Source: Auritidibacter sp. Marseille-P8566 (GTDB lineage: Bacteria > Bacteroidota > Bacteroidia > Flavobacteriales > Flavobacteriaceae). From it: a DNA stretch of 7,499 bases. The number at the start of each line of letters is the position of its first letter. Position 1 is the first letter of the stretch. The stretch lies in contig CALPQA020000083.1 in the NCBI GenBank assembly GCA_943325595.2, positions 1-7,499 of the forward strand, in the 5' to 3' direction. Below, one piece after another: positions 1,073 through 7,499 of the stretch. Position numbers and translations under genes: made by a program. The notes beneath the pieces are model-generated. The model worked only from the letters and a program-made list of their open reading frames with translations. It had not been told where the DNA came from and searched no databases.

Positions 1073-2371
1073 ATGAGTACAAAATTTAAACTGACCTTTT
1101 GGCAAATAATAAACATGAATGTGGGTTTTTTTGGCATTCAATATAGTTTTGGATTACAACAAAGCGCTGTAAATCCAATCTACGATTTTTTACATGCAAG
1201 TCCAGATCAAATCCCGATATTAAACCTTGCGGGGCCATTAACAGGTTTGCTAATTCAACCATTAATTGGCGCTATGAGTGATAAAACCTGGCATCCAAGA
1301 TGGGGAAGACGAAAACCTTACTTTTTTATTGGCGCATTAGTTTGTAGTATCGCACTATTTCTTTTTCCTTTTAGTAGCTCTCTTTGGATGGCGGTAGGAT
1401 TACTTTGGATATTGGATGTTGGAAACAACACCGCAATGGAGCCTTACCGTGCTTTTATCGCAGACACACTAAATGAAGAACAACAACCAACAGGCTTTCA
1501 GGCGCAAAGTTTCTTTACAGGTTTTGGACAATTTTTATCATATATTTCTCTTTTTCTATTTCCAATTGTATTTGTTGGTTACACCGGAGAATTACCAAAT
1601 TGGATGTACGCCTCGTTTTTCCTAGGTTCTGTGTTGTCAATTACTTCTATTTGGTGGAGTATGAAAAAAACACCTGAAATTATACCTTCAGATGAAGAAC
1701 TTGCAAAATTAAAAGCTGAACCATTAAATATTTTTTCTCCTTTCATTGACATCTACAAAGCAGTGGTTGAAATGCCTTCGGTGATGTGGCAACTGTTTTT
1801 AGTTTATTTGTTTCAATGGTATGCTTTGATGTGTTATTGGCAAAACAATGCCAAAAGTATTGCTTTGTCAGTTTGGAATGTAACGCCAGATAACAAAATT
1901 GCTTATGAAAAAGCGGTTGGATGGAATGGTTTAATAGGTGCTTTTGGGTTTATTATTACTTTTTCAATTGCGTTTTATTTAGCTAAATTTGCAAAAAAAC
2001 ACAGCGCCAAAATAACGCATTTTATTTGTTTATTGTTAGGAGCCATTTCCTTTTTATGTTTCCCAATGGTACAAAATCAATATTTGTTTTTTGTAGTAAT
2101 AATAGGTTACGGAATCGCTTGGGCTAGTATGATGGGAATTCCTTATCTTTTGGTAGTTTCAAATATTCCTAAAGAACGTTATGGTGTGTATATGGGAATT
2201 ATAAATATGATGATTGTAATACCAATGATTATTCAAAACTTATCTTTTGGTTACATCCTCAAACATTTTTTAAATAACGATCCAAGATTAGCAATTACTT
2301 TTGCAGGAATTCTTTTATTGATTGGGGCTTTTTGCACCCTTTTGATAAAAACCAAAAAAATAAAATTGTAG
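1073..2371 (+). CDS. MFS sugar permease of the SLC45/sucrose-symporter (GPH-like) type
   Basis: A 432-residue polytopic membrane protein with about 12 hydrophobic segments, expected in the inner membrane as a cation-coupled importer of a disaccharide. Visible family marks are GPLTGLLIQPLIGAMSD (54-70), followed by the loop-2/3 signature RWGRRKP (76-82), and LDVGNNTAMEPYRAFIAD (114-131). The last closely follows the LDVANN...PCRALLAD motif of plant SUT/SUC transporters as I remember it. A late GVYMGIINMMIVIPMI segment (371-386) also fits that family. A hydrophilic central loop lies around residues 198-235. The length is short of plant SUTs (about 500) but normal for bacterial members. It is the first gene of the run, only 6 bp before a GH100-like hydrolase, which supports sucrose or a related non-reducing disaccharide; maltose or another glucoside cannot be excluded. 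The ATG at 1073 has no clear Shine-Dalgarno, as is usual in this phylum. Confidence 0.87.
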   Translation: MSTKFKLTFWQIINMNVGFFGIQYSFGLQQSAVNPIYDFLHASPDQIPILNLAGPLTGLLIQPLIGAMSDKTWHPRWGRRKPYFFIGALVCSIALFLFPFSSSLWMAVGLLWILDVGNNTAMEPYRAFIADTLNEEQQPTGFQAQSFFTGFGQFLSYISLFLFPIVFVGYTGELPNWMYASFFLGSVLSITSIWWSMKKTPEIIPSDEELAKLKAEPLNIFSPFIDIYKAVVEMPSVMWQLFLVYLFQWYALMCYWQNNAKSIALSVWNVTPDNKIAYEKAVGWNGLIGAFGFIITFSIAFYLAKFAKKHSAKITHFICLLLGAISFLCFPMVQNQYLFFVVIIGYGIAWASMMGIPYLLVVSNIPKERYGVYMGIINMMIVIPMIIQNLSFGYILKHFLNNDPRLAITFAGILLLIGAFCTLLIKTKKIKL

Positions 2372-2377
2372 CAAGCA

Positions 2378-3556
2378 ATGAATAGTGACACTAACTATAT
2401 AAAAGCTATTGAGCTCCTGCAAAAGGTATCTTCTTCGGAAGGATTTTTAGCGAGTGCTCAAAACATTTCTAATTACAAAAGGGTTTGGGCTCGTGATGGC
2501 GTTATTTGTGGACTAGCAGCATTGGCTTCTGGTAATGAAAAACTGATTGAAACTTTCAAAAAAACTTTAGAAACGCTCGCAGAAAACCAACATGAAAATG
2601 GCACAATTCCTTCTAATGTAATGTCAAACGGAGAGGAAAAAGAAGTAAGTTATGGCGGTCTTGCAGGAAGAGTTGATGCTGTAACTTGGTTTATAATTGG
2701 AATTTGTCAATATGCCTTTTATAAAAAAGAGGTTGATTTTGTTGCGAAACACGACGCTGCAATTCAGAAATGCCTCCAACTCATGGAAGCTTGGGAATTC
2801 AATAACAAACATTTAATGTATGTTCCACTTTCAGGAAATTGGGCAGACGAATACATTACTGATGGCTATGTATTATACGATCAATTACTTCGGATTTGGG
2901 CTTTAAAAAGTTATAATCAATTTGCAAAAAACATTACGATTTCTGAAAAAATCGCAAAAATAACGAACCAAATTGAGGTGAATTTCACTCCGAATGCTGT
3001 TGGTGAAAAATACCATGAAAGAGCCTATACTGAAGCAAACATCAAAGAATTTATGCCTTGCTCCTTCTCCCCTGCCGGTTATAAAACCCAATTTGATGCT
3101 TTTGCAAATTCATTGGTATTAATGCTAAATATTGGTAGTGAAGTTTTTCAAAAATCCATATTGAATTATTTCGAAAAATTAGAAAAACAAATGCCGTTGC
3201 AATTAATACCTGCTTTTTGGCCTCCGATTCAAGAAACGGATATCGACTGGAATTTGCTAAAAAACAATTGCAAATATGAATTTCGAAACTATCCAAATGA
3301 ATTTCACAATGCCGGAAGTTGGCCAATGGTTAATGGGTTTTATGGTTTGGCATTGGTTGCAAAAAACAAAAAACAGGAAGCTGATTTGCTTCTAAAAAAC
3401 ATAAATAAGGCAAATGCTATTGAAGACTATTCATTTTATGAGAATTTTAATAGCGAAACAAAAAAGCCAAACGGAGTTCCTTACTGTGCTTGGAGTGCTG
3501 CCGCAACTGTAATGTTGCATCAAAGTATAAATACAAATTTTAAATTTCTTCTTTAA
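2378..3556 (+). CDS. GH100-like (alpha/alpha)6 glycosidase, probable neutral/alkaline invertase
   Basis: A 392-residue soluble protein without a signal peptide, so cytoplasmic. Its motifs run in the order of plant and cyanobacterial alkaline/neutral invertases (GH100). NYKRVWARDG (32-41) corresponds to NYDQVFVRDF; GRVDAVTWFIIG (98-109) to the catalytic-acid block GRVAPVDSGLWWII; NEFHNAGSWP (307-316) to TYHNGGSWP; and FYENFN (353-358) to the WPEYYDG nucleophile block. On that alignment the acid would be Asp100 and the nucleophile Glu355. The family hydrolyses sucrose to glucose and fructose, and the neighbours (sucrose-type permease before, PfkB sugar kinase 1 bp after) fit this. The protein is shorter than GH100 enzymes (about 450-550) and diverges around the acid (VDAVTW against VDSGLW), so another alpha-glucoside is possible. 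Proteins of this shape are sometimes labelled amylo-alpha-1,6-glucosidase; nothing in the context suggests glycogen debranching. The fold call is firm, the substrate moderate. The ATG at 2378 lies 6 bp after the permease stop. Confidence 0.8.
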   Translation: MNSDTNYIKAIELLQKVSSSEGFLASAQNISNYKRVWARDGVICGLAALASGNEKLIETFKKTLETLAENQHENGTIPSNVMSNGEEKEVSYGGLAGRVDAVTWFIIGICQYAFYKKEVDFVAKHDAAIQKCLQLMEAWEFNNKHLMYVPLSGNWADEYITDGYVLYDQLLRIWALKSYNQFAKNITISEKIAKITNQIEVNFTPNAVGEKYHERAYTEANIKEFMPCSFSPAGYKTQFDAFANSLVLMLNIGSEVFQKSILNYFEKLEKQMPLQLIPAFWPPIQETDIDWNLLKNNCKYEFRNYPNEFHNAGSWPMVNGFYGLALVAKNKKQEADLLLKNINKANAIEDYSFYENFNSETKKPNGVPYCAWSAAATVMLHQSINTNFKFLL

Positions 3557-3557
3557 A

Positions 3558-4493
3558 TTGGAAAAAACGATAGATATTATTAGTGTTGGTGAAGTCCTAA
3601 TTGATTTTATTGGACATGAAGTAAATGCACCAATATCAAAAACAAAAAATTACCATCGGTTTCTAGGTGGTTCACCTACTAATGTTGCTATAAATGCAGC
3701 CAAACTTGGATTAAAATCTGTGCTAGTTGCAACCTGCGGGAAAGATGGTTTAGGAGATTTTATTTTCAGAAAATTAGAAAAAAATAAGGTAATTACGTCT
3801 AATATTGTTAAGACAGAAGCTTTCCCAACCTCGGTAATATTTGTTTCAAAATCTACCGAAACTCCAGAATTTATTGCCTATCGTCAAGCAGATTGCCAAA
3901 TAGAAACTTCCCAAATCTCTGAAGAACTCTTACAATCTGCTAAAATTTTTCACACCACGTGTTTTGCGTTAAGTCAAAATCCTGCTCGTGAAACAATTGT
4001 TGAAAGTGCTAAAAAAGCGAAAGAACTTGGTTTAATAACAAGTATCGACATTAATTTCTCCGAAAAAATTTGGCCTAACCGAGAAGAAGCAAAAAGTGTT
4101 TTAAAAGAATATCTTTCTACAAATCCTATCGTAAAATTAAGCGATGATGATTGCTTTAGGCTTTTTAATGAGACAAAAGAAAATCAGTTTATTTTTGACT
4201 ATTTTCATGAACTAGGAGCCGCCACAATTTGTTTGACAAAAGGAAAAAACGGGGTGGTTCTATCCGATAAAAAATTAGGAGTGTTTAATTATAAGGCACT
4301 TCCAATTGATACTATTGTAGACACCACAGGAGCTGGTGACGCTTTTTGGACGGGCTTTTTATATGCCCAATTATCACAAAGTAATTTGGATGATACTGTA
4401 GCTATCGCCCAAAAATTGGCAGTATTAAAACTTCAAAACTTGGGTGGATTACCCGAAGAAATGGATATTCTTGCCTATTTAAACTCCAATTAA
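3558..4493 (+). CDS. PfkB-family carbohydrate kinase, probable fructokinase
   Basis: A 311-residue ribokinase/PfkB-fold kinase, expected to transfer the ATP gamma-phosphate to a sugar in the cytoplasm. The sugar-binding start GEVLIDF (11-17, Asp16) is followed by the first signature GGSPTNVAINAAKLG (37-51), the mid-domain SIDINFSEKIW (162-172), and the second signature DTTGAGDAFWTGF (255-267), whose Asp261 is the expected catalytic base. The length is typical. The start is TTG at 3558, one base after the hydrolase stop: this places GEVLIDF near residue 11, as in family members, and an in-frame ATG is not available before that motif. PfkB kinases for fructose, 2-keto-3-deoxygluconate and 5-dehydro-2-deoxygluconate share these motifs. 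Position behind a sucrose-type permease and an invertase-like enzyme favours fructose to fructose 6-phosphate. No other ketogluconate or inositol genes are nearby. Confidence 0.85.
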   Translation: MEKTIDIISVGEVLIDFIGHEVNAPISKTKNYHRFLGGSPTNVAINAAKLGLKSVLVATCGKDGLGDFIFRKLEKNKVITSNIVKTEAFPTSVIFVSKSTETPEFIAYRQADCQIETSQISEELLQSAKIFHTTCFALSQNPARETIVESAKKAKELGLITSIDINFSEKIWPNREEAKSVLKEYLSTNPIVKLSDDDCFRLFNETKENQFIFDYFHELGAATICLTKGKNGVVLSDKKLGVFNYKALPIDTIVDTTGAGDAFWTGFLYAQLSQSNLDDTVAIAQKLAVLKLQNLGGLPEEMDILAYLNSN

Positions 4494-4517
4494 TAGTAGA
4501 ATCAAAAAAAGAAAATC

Positions 4518-5738
4518 ATGAAAAAAAATGCTATTAAAGCGGTATTATACCTCAATTATTTTGTTTTTGCAATCTTACTTAATAGCGTCGGAATTGTGAT
4601 TTATAAATCCCAAAAAATTTATGGAGTTAATGAAGTTGACGCAAGTATTCTTGAGGCTTTCAAAGATTTTCCTATTGCTATTGTTTCCTTTTTGATTGCT
4701 TCCTTTTTGCCAAGAATAGGGTACAAAAAAGCAATGTTGATAAGCTTGGGATTGGTTACATTAGCCTGTCTGAGCATGTATTTTGGAAATTCATTTTTAG
4801 CTGCCAAAATATTATTTGCTACTGTTGGTGTTTCTTTCGCACTCATAAAAGTTTCGGTCTATTCCTTAATTGGTATGGTTACCGACAATCAAAAAGAACA
4901 CAACAGCTTAATGAGCAGCATAGAAGGAGTTTTTATGATTGGAATTGCATTAGCCTATTTTTTATTTCCTGCTTTTAATTCAGATACAAACGTAAATGCT
5001 TGGTTAAACGTTTATTTGCTTTTGGCATTCATTTCACTGCTTTCATTCGGGTTTTTATTTTTTACAAAATTTGATTTGCCAGTAGAAATTCCGGGTTCTG
5101 ATTTACTCGATGATTTTAGAAAAATGGGGTTTTTGTTGGCTAAATTATTGACGATTATTTTTGTGATAAGCGCTTTCTTATTTGTAATGATCGAGCAAGG
5201 AATCATGTCTTGGCTGCCCACCTTCAACGCTAAAGTACTTCATCTTCCTGAAAATATTAGTATTATGATGGCCAGTATTCTCGCAATTTCATTAGCCGTT
5301 GGTAGATTATTAGCGGGAGTGATTACCAAAAAAATAAATTGGATTTGGATATTAACTTTTTGTATTATTAGTGCTATGCTCGTCGTGTTGTTTGTTTTAC
5401 CAAAAACAATTGGACTACAAGTTATTGCCATTAATTCCATTTCAGATATTCCATTAATAGGATTTGCATTTCCATTGGTAGGGTTGTTTATTGCGCCTAT
5501 TTATCCTTTGTTAAATTCGGTAATATTGAGTTCCTTGCCAAAAAAACTTCACAGTTCAATGACGGGATTAATCGTGGTGTTTTCAGCTCTTGGAGGCACT
5601 CTCGGATCAAGAATTATCGGTTGGCTGTTTATGACCAAAGGGCCTGAAAATGCATTTTATTTTACCTTAATTCCAATGTCTTTATTACTATTATCTTTCT
5701 TTATTTTGAAAAAATTAACTGCACAAAATGAAGTTTAA
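4518..5738 (+). CDS. MFS sugar permease, FHS (fucose/glucose-galactose)-like
   Basis: A 406-residue polytopic inner-membrane protein with about 12 hydrophobic segments and a charged central region near residues 184-204. The motif FPRIGYKKAM-like loop (LPRIGYKKAM, 64-73) is a reduced form of the MFS loop-2/3 signature. The segment LFIAPIYPLLNSVILSSLP (323-341), with its PIYP, and SALGGTLGSRIIG (356-368) resemble helices 9-11 of FHS permeases such as FucP and the glucose/galactose transporters. EQGIMSWLP (226-234) at the start of the second half may contribute polar substrate contacts. It starts 24 bp after the kinase, behind a purine-rich stretch, and its last 11 bp overlap the trehalase start. 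The substrate may therefore be trehalose, glucose or fructose, and import versus export is not determinable. Family placement is moderate; membrane transporter status is certain. Confidence 0.82.
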   Translation: MKKNAIKAVLYLNYFVFAILLNSVGIVIYKSQKIYGVNEVDASILEAFKDFPIAIVSFLIASFLPRIGYKKAMLISLGLVTLACLSMYFGNSFLAAKILFATVGVSFALIKVSVYSLIGMVTDNQKEHNSLMSSIEGVFMIGIALAYFLFPAFNSDTNVNAWLNVYLLLAFISLLSFGFLFFTKFDLPVEIPGSDLLDDFRKMGFLLAKLLTIIFVISAFLFVMIEQGIMSWLPTFNAKVLHLPENISIMMASILAISLAVGRLLAGVITKKINWIWILTFCIISAMLVVLFVLPKTIGLQVIAINSISDIPLIGFAFPLVGLFIAPIYPLLNSVILSSLPKKLHSSMTGLIVVFSALGGTLGSRIIGWLFMTKGPENAFYFTLIPMSLLLLSFFILKKLTAQNEV

Positions 5739-7499
5739 ACTCCACATAAATCAAACGCTACAAGAATTATTATCTCAAGAAGATACTGATGGCGACAAGA
5801 AGATCACTATCGATGATGATGGCCCAAAAAAGTTTATAATTGTCAGTGAAGAGGGAACTGAATTTTCGATTGAAGGAACCTATTATTTATCAAACTTACT
5901 TCAAGAATTGGCTTTAGCCAAAAAAAGAACTTCCGAAGTTGCACAAATCAATATATCCGAAATAATAGAGGCGCCAGTAACAAGAATTTCAAGAAAAATA
6001 AAAGACCTTTATTGGGAAGGACTTACCAGAACCATAGATAAAGACGGGATTGTTAAGATAATTGAAGACGATAAAATTGACAACCCAATTTCATACCTCT
6101 ATGTTCCATTCAACGACCCTATTGCTTTTGACTATTTTAAGAAATTAGAGAAAAGCATTTCAAAATTAGAAGTAGTCCAACTACCCGAAATAATGACTCC
6201 AGATTTCATTTTAACATTGAATAAAAAACCTGGAATTCTAGCGCTTGCTCTCGAAATAAATAACGGAGAAATTAAAGGTGTTCCTTTTGTAGTTCCTGGA
6301 GGACGTTTCAATGAAATGTATGGCTGGGATAGCTATTTCATTGCCATGGGGCTAATTATTGATGATAAAATAAATCTTGCCGTTGCCATAACAGAAAACT
6401 TTAAATATCAAATTGATCATTACGGAAAAATTCTTAATGCCAATAGAAGCTACTATTTAACTCGCACGCAACCTCCTTTTTATACCACTTTACTTATTGA
6501 TATTCTTAGTAAATCAAATCAAGAAAAATCTTGGATTGAAAAGCATTTAAAAACGGCAATTACAGAATATGAAACAGTTTGGATGCAAGAGAAAACTAGA
6601 CTTGCGTCAAATGGTTTAAACCGCTATAAAGCAGAAGGAATTGGGCTTCCATTTGAGGTAGAAATTGGACACTTTGATGCTATACTCGAGAAATATGCTT
6701 TGAAATACAACATGCCTTTACGCGATTTTGAAAAAAAATATTTAAACAGAGAAATCGTTGACGAAACATTAGATTCCTATTTTATTCACGATCGAAGTAT
6801 GCGCGAAAGTGGGCATGATACAACCAATAGATTGGATGCAATTTGTGCCGATTTGACTCCAATTGACTTGAATTGCTTGCTATATAAATTTGAAACCGAC
6901 ATTGCTTTTTTAATTAAAACTGAATTTAACAACGAGTTTTCGTATAATGAAAACACACGATATACTTCAGAAAATTGGAATAAGAAAGCGGAAATTAGAA
7001 AGGAAAAAATAAATAAATTCTGTTGGAACGAAGAAAAAGGAATTTATTTTGATTATAATTTTATAAAATCTGAACAACACGAATTTGAAGCCGCAACAAC
7101 TTTTTATCCTTTGTGGGCAAATTTATGCAGCGCCGAACAAGCCTCAATTTTAGTAAAAACTACACTTCCTAAGTTCAAATTAAAAGGTGGAATTGTAGGA
7201 AGCACAAAAAAAGAAATAGAAAATTTAGATGCAAAATTACCTCAAAGACAATGGGATTATCCTTTTGGCTGGGCTCCTCATCAAATTATTTTATGGCAAG
7301 GATTATTAAATTACAATTACAAAAATGAAGCCCAGGAAATGATTTATCGATGGCTTTGGCTCATTACAAGAAATGCCGTAGACTATAATGGGACTATTCC
7401 CGAAAAATTTGATTTAGAAATCAGCTCCCATAAAATTTTTGCTGAATATGGGAATGTAGGAACTGAATTTGACTACATTACAGAAGAAGGATTTGGATG
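5728..7499 (+). CDS. Neutral trehalase (GH37) of the fungal Nth1 type, truncated at window edge
   Basis: The reading frame opens at ATG 5728, overlapping the permease end by 11 bp, and continues uninterrupted for 590 codons to the edge; the last codon begun (TG) is probably Trp of GFGW. It cleaves alpha,alpha-trehalose to two glucoses. GH37 signature 1 is PGGRFNEMYGWDSY (190-203) and signature 2 is QWDYPFGWAP (508-517). The catalytic acid is Asp364 in ESGHDTTNR and the base is Glu559 in PEKFD, by alignment to E. coli Asp312/Glu496 and yeast Asp478/Glu674. There is no signal peptide, so it is cytoplasmic. The sequence follows yeast Nth1 rather than E. coli TreA/TreF: an EF-like loop DTDGDKKITIDD (19-30) and GP, then GTYYLSNLLQELALAKK (51-67), HYGKILNANRSYYL (232-245) and EYGNVG (572-577). 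The fungal N-terminal tail of about 95 residues with 14-3-3 phosphosites is absent. Roughly 20-55 C-terminal residues are missing beyond the edge. Comparisons are from memory; the enzyme call is very firm. Confidence 0.95.
   Translation, partial: MKFKLHINQTLQELLSQEDTDGDKKITIDDDGPKKFIIVSEEGTEFSIEGTYYLSNLLQELALAKKRTSEVAQINISEIIEAPVTRISRKIKDLYWEGLTRTIDKDGIVKIIEDDKIDNPISYLYVPFNDPIAFDYFKKLEKSISKLEVVQLPEIMTPDFILTLNKKPGILALALEINNGEIKGVPFVVPGGRFNEMYGWDSYFIAMGLIIDDKINLAVAITENFKYQIDHYGKILNANRSYYLTRTQPPFYTTLLIDILSKSNQEKSWIEKHLKTAITEYETVWMQEKTRLASNGLNRYKAEGIGLPFEVEIGHFDAILEKYALKYNMPLRDFEKKYLNREIVDETLDSYFIHDRSMRESGHDTTNRLDAICADLTPIDLNCLLYKFETDIAFLIKTEFNNEFSYNENTRYTSENWNKKAEIRKEKINKFCWNEEKGIYFDYNFIKSEQHEFEAATTFYPLWANLCSAEQASILVKTTLPKFKLKGGIVGSTKKEIENLDAKLPQRQWDYPFGWAPHQIILWQGLLNYNYKNEAQEMIYRWLWLITRNAVDYNGTIPEKFDLEISSHKIFAEYGNVGTEFDYITEEGFG
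5782..5817 (+). other. EF-hand-like calcium-binding loop coding segment in the trehalase
   Basis: Residues 19-30 of the trehalase read DTDGDKKITIDD. Acidic residues fall at loop positions 1, 3, 5 and 12 (Asp19, Asp21, Asp23, Asp30), with Thr27 at position 9, which is the ligand spacing of an EF-hand loop. Yeast Nth1 has DTDKNYQITIED at residues 114-125 in the same place before GPK. Ca2+ binding there is known to support activation in yeast. Binding in this bacterial protein is inferred. Confidence 0.7.

Follow-up and report, generated by a model that had tools for sequence, protein, structure and literature searches.

The analysed window, 7,499 nucleotides in length, ends inside a gene for a GH37 alpha,alpha-trehalase (5728..7497, + strand), which is preceded on the same strand by four further sugar genes. 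Directly upstream is the MFS transporter MFS_B (4518..5738), a probable trehalose importer, whose gene overlaps the trehalase start by 11 bases, and before it lie a PfkB sugar kinase (3558..4493), a GH100-like hydrolase (2378..3556) and a second MFS transporter, MFS_A (1073..2371). The closest solved relative of the kinase is called a fructokinase, and all NCBIfam models stay below their cut-offs on it, the best being 5-dehydro-2-deoxygluconokinase. The hydrolase match reaches 49.8 bits (cut-off 23.6), and the protein is a distant relative of solved alkaline invertases; MFS_A resembles sucrose/proton symporters only weakly (80 bits against a cut-off of 511). From sequence, MFS_A, the hydrolase and the kinase are probably a sucrose set, which forms a single run of genes together with the trehalose pair (1073-5738). 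Ahead of the sugar genes a 305 amino acid protein is encoded (31-948) with a GyrI-like match below the cut-off (22.4 bits, cut-off 26), relatives of which are found in the loci sharing MFS_A.

The trehalase reading frame is open at the 3' end of the window and yields 590 amino acids. As P0001, a protein 99% identical to it (7 differences), has 622 residues, about 32 C-terminal residues lie outside the window. Pfam assigns to it, on the + strand like all features below, the Trehalase_Ca-bi domain PF07492 (5758..5835, residues 11-36; 41.5 bits, E 1.1e-10, above the gathering score of 25) and the GH37 catalytic domain PF01204 (5977..7497, residues 84-590; 426.6 bits, gathering score 21). Within the first of these is the EF-like loop DTDGDKKITIDD (5782..5817, residues 19-30), which the earlier note had read as a calcium loop, a family assignment that the PF07492 match confirms. 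In the catalytic domain the block ESGHDTTNR (6805..6831) includes D364, invariant in the alignment, which we take by homology to be the catalytic acid. The block EYGNVG (7444..7461, residues 573-578) starts with the invariant E573, presumably a catalytic residue, and is assumed here to be the counterpart of the Nth1 lid. GH37 signature 1, PGGRFNEMYGWDSY (6295..6336, residues 190-203), and signature 2, QWDYPFGWAP (7249..7278, residues 508-517), were recognised by the motif definitions in the available part of PMC10969515.

The trehalase starts 18 residues ahead of the loop and does not carry a tail with PKA/14-3-3 sites. The codons directly 5' of its ATG are TAA CTG CAC AAA, and because the in-frame stop TAA (5716..5718, + strand, by codon reading) stands four codons before the ATG there is no space for an N-terminal tail; the same stop excludes a mis-called start as the cause of its absence. 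The lack of a phospho-regulatory tail, claimed from the letters alone, is therefore correct. The portion absent corresponds to the Nth1 tail, which measures 95 residues in yeast according to the accessible text of PMC7806596. Among the relatives, the stretch ahead of the loop has a median of 18 residues in bacteria versus 111 in fungi, and a motif R[RK]x[ST] ahead of the loop is present in nearly every hit taken as fungal (118 of 120) versus 1 of 239 taken as bacterial, a comparison in which the shorter bacterial stretch by itself lowers the chance of such a motif.

The search of solved structures bears out a fungal neutral-trehalase plan, as had been proposed in the earlier note, the four blocks quoted there all being present in the translation. 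The best four PDB sequences are all yeast Nth1, the closest being 5nis, 5jta and 5n6n (E 6e-158 to 9e-158, residues 6/7-590) and the fourth having an E value of 5e-146; E. coli TreA comes next, with E 3e-38 over residues 186-565 only. That this is an ordinary trehalase of the TreF/TreA type with a chance loop is hardly conceivable: it shares with them the GH37 family and fold, but the TreF model gives 174.4 bits against a cut-off of 512 and the TreA models 157.3 against 941 and 156.3 against 560, and it stands apart from the TreA/TreF rows in the trees. A chance loop as such is ruled out by the E value of the PF07492 match.

The AlphaFold model of the trehalase has a pLDDT of 91.7. With VIA-align it matches 5n6n_C, which is Nth1 with 14-3-3, along its full length (577 residues aligned, model 1-590, rmsd 2.3), and with the free forms 5nis and 5jta the alignment begins only at model residues 82 and 81, respectively. 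The Z scores of 42.5 for 5n6n_C and 43.3 for both 5nis and 5jta are a tie by the rule of the tool, and the bound form is not favoured. The structures used to train AlphaFold2 include 5n6n, and the bound-like arrangement of the model may be copied from it. The block 571-580, which contains EYGNVG and is the one of lowest confidence in both models, has a pLDDT of about 53 even in the full-length model, which gives no sign of a lid ordered by the module.

Conservation of the loop was followed in an alignment of 381 sequences, composed of the window trehalase, 120 hits, 119 new profile-search hits, 21 locus proteins and 120 hits taken as fungal, of which 66 carry organism names, every one fungal by hand count. 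Each of the 260 relatives taken as bacterial has Asp at the positions of D19, D21, D23 and D30, the comparator being a mean conservation of 60% over N-terminal positions 1-185 in the 140-row diverse part of the bacterial set; this invariance is partly ascertained, because the aligned rows overlap and came from loop-bearing queries. The rows taken as fungal, 120 in number, have Asp throughout at the positions of D19 and D30 and in 119 cases at that of D21; D19, D21 and D30 are common to the window trehalase and Nth1. It had been suggested that the loop could be a structural relic, an inherited element which no longer binds Ca2+, and 14-3-3 is indeed not known from bacteria. We hold this to be very unlikely, because the four acid side chains are kept in 260 of 260 bacterial relatives while loop positions 22, 24, 25 and 28 vary, and loop position 5 (residue 23) is Asp in bacteria against Asn in 111 of the 120 fungal-type rows. 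The other option of the same note, that Ca2+ alone would stabilise or tune the bacterial enzyme, is favoured.

Three N-terminal forms were distinguished, export signals being called by eye and with a hydrophobicity rule, without a dedicated predictor. In the cytoplasmic form, found in 77 of the 80 loci kept and in several other lineages, the loop lies 17 or 18 residues past the Met. A lipoprotein-like signal occurs in L079, L080, L136, L137 and L143, and a Sec-like signal, with about seven additional residues past the loop, in L138, L139, L145, L147, L148 and L149. The relatives with export signals retain the loop, which in them would be located where 14-3-3 cannot act. These forms bear on the possibility of a Ca2+ sensor, by which the loop of the cytoplasmic enzymes would adjust activity with the Ca2+ of the cell, perhaps via another bacterial partner replacing 14-3-3. 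The cytoplasmic forms do conserve the loop, and the module and its ligand spacing are as in Nth1, whose activity is further raised by bound Ca2+ in the accessible part of PMC10847541. We nevertheless think a sensor distinctly unlikely, since exported relatives, probably in Ca2+-rich surroundings, have the same loop; its identity in these proteins suggests a permanent Ca2+ site.

The gene neighbourhood was surveyed in 95 loci of over 10 kb, shorter loci being omitted and L079 left out because it duplicates L141. Across related loci 17 neighbouring genes were identified, a small number beyond which a linked regulator, as a sensor might require, may exist. MFS_B is upstream of the trehalase in all 75 Flavobacterium-type loci. 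In the other 19 loci it is upstream in 7 of the 9 called cytoplasmic versus none of the 10 called exported (Fisher p 0.0007, for lineages which are not independent). The cytoplasmic-called loci without MFS_B are L133 and L146, and in L146 the start is probably mis-set and the call wrong. A simple reading is that an internal enzyme is supplied by MFS_B with trehalose, its presumed substrate, and that the importer is absent where the enzyme is exported. Upstream in L001 are genes for a TonB receptor and, in divergent orientation, a LacI regulator, and other Flavobacterium loci have reading frames of matching sizes.

The sucrose part of the neighbourhood is variable. In L044 a 578 amino acid GH13-like protein is found in place of the hydrolase, and L046 and L134 have reading frames of that size. 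MFS_A is shared by 27 of the surveyed Flavobacterium-type loci (71-88% identical), and in all 27 the trehalase has no more than 59-64% identity with that of the window; in the 47 loci without MFS_A the trehalase is 60-76% identical to it. The pattern suggests that 1073-7497 may be a mosaic in which the trehalase gene was replaced within the genus, or that old paralogs are involved.

Of 164 confirmed loci 80 were kept (56-76% identity), and 72 of these 80 have Flavobacterium in their record titles. Besides P0001 the best database hits are 73-77% identical, those with names being Flavobacterium. A recent transfer was considered and rejected on the Flavobacterium count, in agreement with the earlier note, which had found it unlikely from base composition; the GC content of the trehalase is 0.31-0.34 versus 0.27-0.36 in the rest of the window. 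Names among the best 120 profile-search hits include Melioribacteraceae, Ignavibacteria, Rhodocaloribacter, Psychroflexus and candidate division KSB1. PF07492 is present in 16 of 296 genomes sampled from the phylum (any PF01204 match in 102), in 21 of 197 genomes of the class of G013 and in 3 of 195 of the class of G039. By hand count, 41 of the 296 genomes have another full-length GH37 (E < 1e-100) and none has both types. A search for a closer outgroup in these genomes listed no GH37 score between 390.5 and 100.8 bits. In the nine genomes reached via loci all ten full-length GH37 hits are loop-bearing, and the Seonamhaeicola sp. MAG G006 has two full-length Ca2+-module trehalases in one genome (L081 and L090). 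Among plasmid records the loop was not reached by the best 20 of 79 matches, the best of them, from Granulicella, being 30.5% identical, and a phage search with L139 gave five records, none with 80% coverage. A Granulicella (Acidobacteriota) plasmid GH37 (L150, 3965-5578) has the YGWDSY form of signature 1, no loop seen and a very long branch, and may be intermediate between the two types of GH37.

For the direction of transfer, which the earlier note had left open both ways, several trees were compared. In a 59-row tree the 20 fungal rows, 5 of them without an organism name, form one clade (100/100), placed within the bacterial set beside bacteria of Rhodothermia type (100/97), a label based on few named rows (Rhodocaloribacter P0132, Rhodothermaceae P0138), with TreA/TreF and Granulicella outside. 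A 70-row tree has the identical arrangement (fungi with Rhodothermia type 99/93); for both trees the program warned that long branches meet and that several rows, that of the window included, have an unusual composition. An 83-row tree on catalytic columns only, with 13 more Bacteroidota GH37 in the outgroup, again nests the fungi (enclosing nodes 100/99 and 99/98; fungi with Rhodothermia type 93/61), as does a quick tree with only TreA/TreF-type outgroups (SH-aLRT 94). With Granulicella as sole outgroup, itself a very long row like TreA and TreF, a quick tree places the fungi outside all bacteria and the root on the fungal branch. Of the five trees rooted with an outgroup, four thus have the fungi nested inside the bacteria. 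The window trehalase falls outside the fungal clade, which has 100/100 in the 59-, 70- and 83-row trees alike, and is not grouped with the TreA/TreF rows, which a very long branch separates from the rest; the GH37 phylogeny asked for in the earlier note does not, therefore, join it to TreF-type enzymes.

That bacteria received the gene from a lineage within the sampled fungi, one of the two directions then considered, is disfavoured because the fungal rows form a single clade. A gene of fungal or other eukaryotic origin that moved to bacteria with loss of the tail is an unlikely but serious alternative. AU tests holding all bacteria as one clade did not reject it (p 0.174, 0.401 and 0.188), and both the Granulicella-only outgroup and the midpoint of the ingroup root on the fungal branch. 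On the other hand, the four trees with a TreA/TreF-type outgroup nest the fungi beside Rhodothermia-type rows, and the fungal rows are one clade, while the bacterial forms span several named phyla/classes and three localisation types. The 66 named hits of the 120 of fungal type include neither chytrids nor basidiomycetes, and neither oomycetes nor any other eukaryote outside the fungi. Q25 is found in all 120 hits taken as fungal, in 11 of 13 Rhodothermia-type tree rows and in 0 of 32 other bacterial tree rows, a pattern which supports the attachment point of the fungi and not the position of the root. We lean towards bacteria-to-fungi as the direction better supported by topology, a direction not backed by the AU tests, the Granulicella-only root or the midpoint root. 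The available parts of PMC3486916 and PMC10778863 say nothing on the origin of this trehalase type.

Taken together, a somewhat better than even case can be made for a cytoplasmic Ca2+-module GH37 trehalase with a constitutive built-in clamp, fed with trehalose by the adjacent MFS transporter, to whose type the phosphorylated tail was added later in fungi. Trehalose would be imported by the MFS protein and split inside the cell. The module at the N-terminus, made up of a helix, the Ca2+ loop of 12 residues and strands, would dock on the catalytic domain and, when Ca2+ is bound, keep the active-site lid region in a productive arrangement, which yeast Nth1 reaches only with 14-3-3; the bacterial clamp would be constitutive, and the later tail would have made it conditional. 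The Nth1 mechanism as published, in the accessible parts of PMC9523730, PMC10847541 and PMC7806596, counts in favour of such a clamp. Within this reading we infer Ca2+ binding, its effect on activity, the substrate of the transporter and the evolutionary order.

The Ca2+ module may be older than the fungal switch, since the bacterial trehalase carries it without the activating tail of yeast. More tentatively, and at slightly under an even chance, the fungal neutral trehalase would derive from a bacterial Ca2+-clamped enzyme nearest to the Rhodothermia type, the 14-3-3 allostery of Nth1 being a tail added to a ready clamp that in bacteria is constitutive inside and outside the cell. Many bacteria have the Ca2+ part, complete with its acid ligands, and no tail, which makes it testable how a classic allosteric switch arose.

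Among known systems, E. coli TreF and TreA have the fold, the signatures and the catalytic residues in common with the window trehalase. They differ in signature 1 (YYWDSY versus YGWDSY) and are very distant in the trees, and the E. coli control genome gave no PF07492 match. A 2023 review of bacterial trehalases names TreA and TreF for GH37, with the Ca2+-module type unmentioned in its available part (PMC10969515). No experimental description of bacterial PF07492 proteins was among the literature matches listed, from a coverage mostly outside subscription journals. Database proteins of bacteria labelled 'alpha,alpha-trehalase' or 'neutral trehalase' with precomputed PF07492 belong to the same family. 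With Nth1 of S. cerevisiae (5n6n, 5nis, 5jta, 5m4a) the window trehalase shares the GH37 domain, the PF07492 module, the spacing of the loop ligands and 43% identity. It differs in its bacterial operon, in loop position 5, which is Asp where Nth1 has Asn, and in being without the 95-residue phosphorylated tail for 14-3-3 binding. The enzyme is a conserved bacterial one whose setting is plain sugar use, and its value is that of a tail-less counterpart of Nth1.
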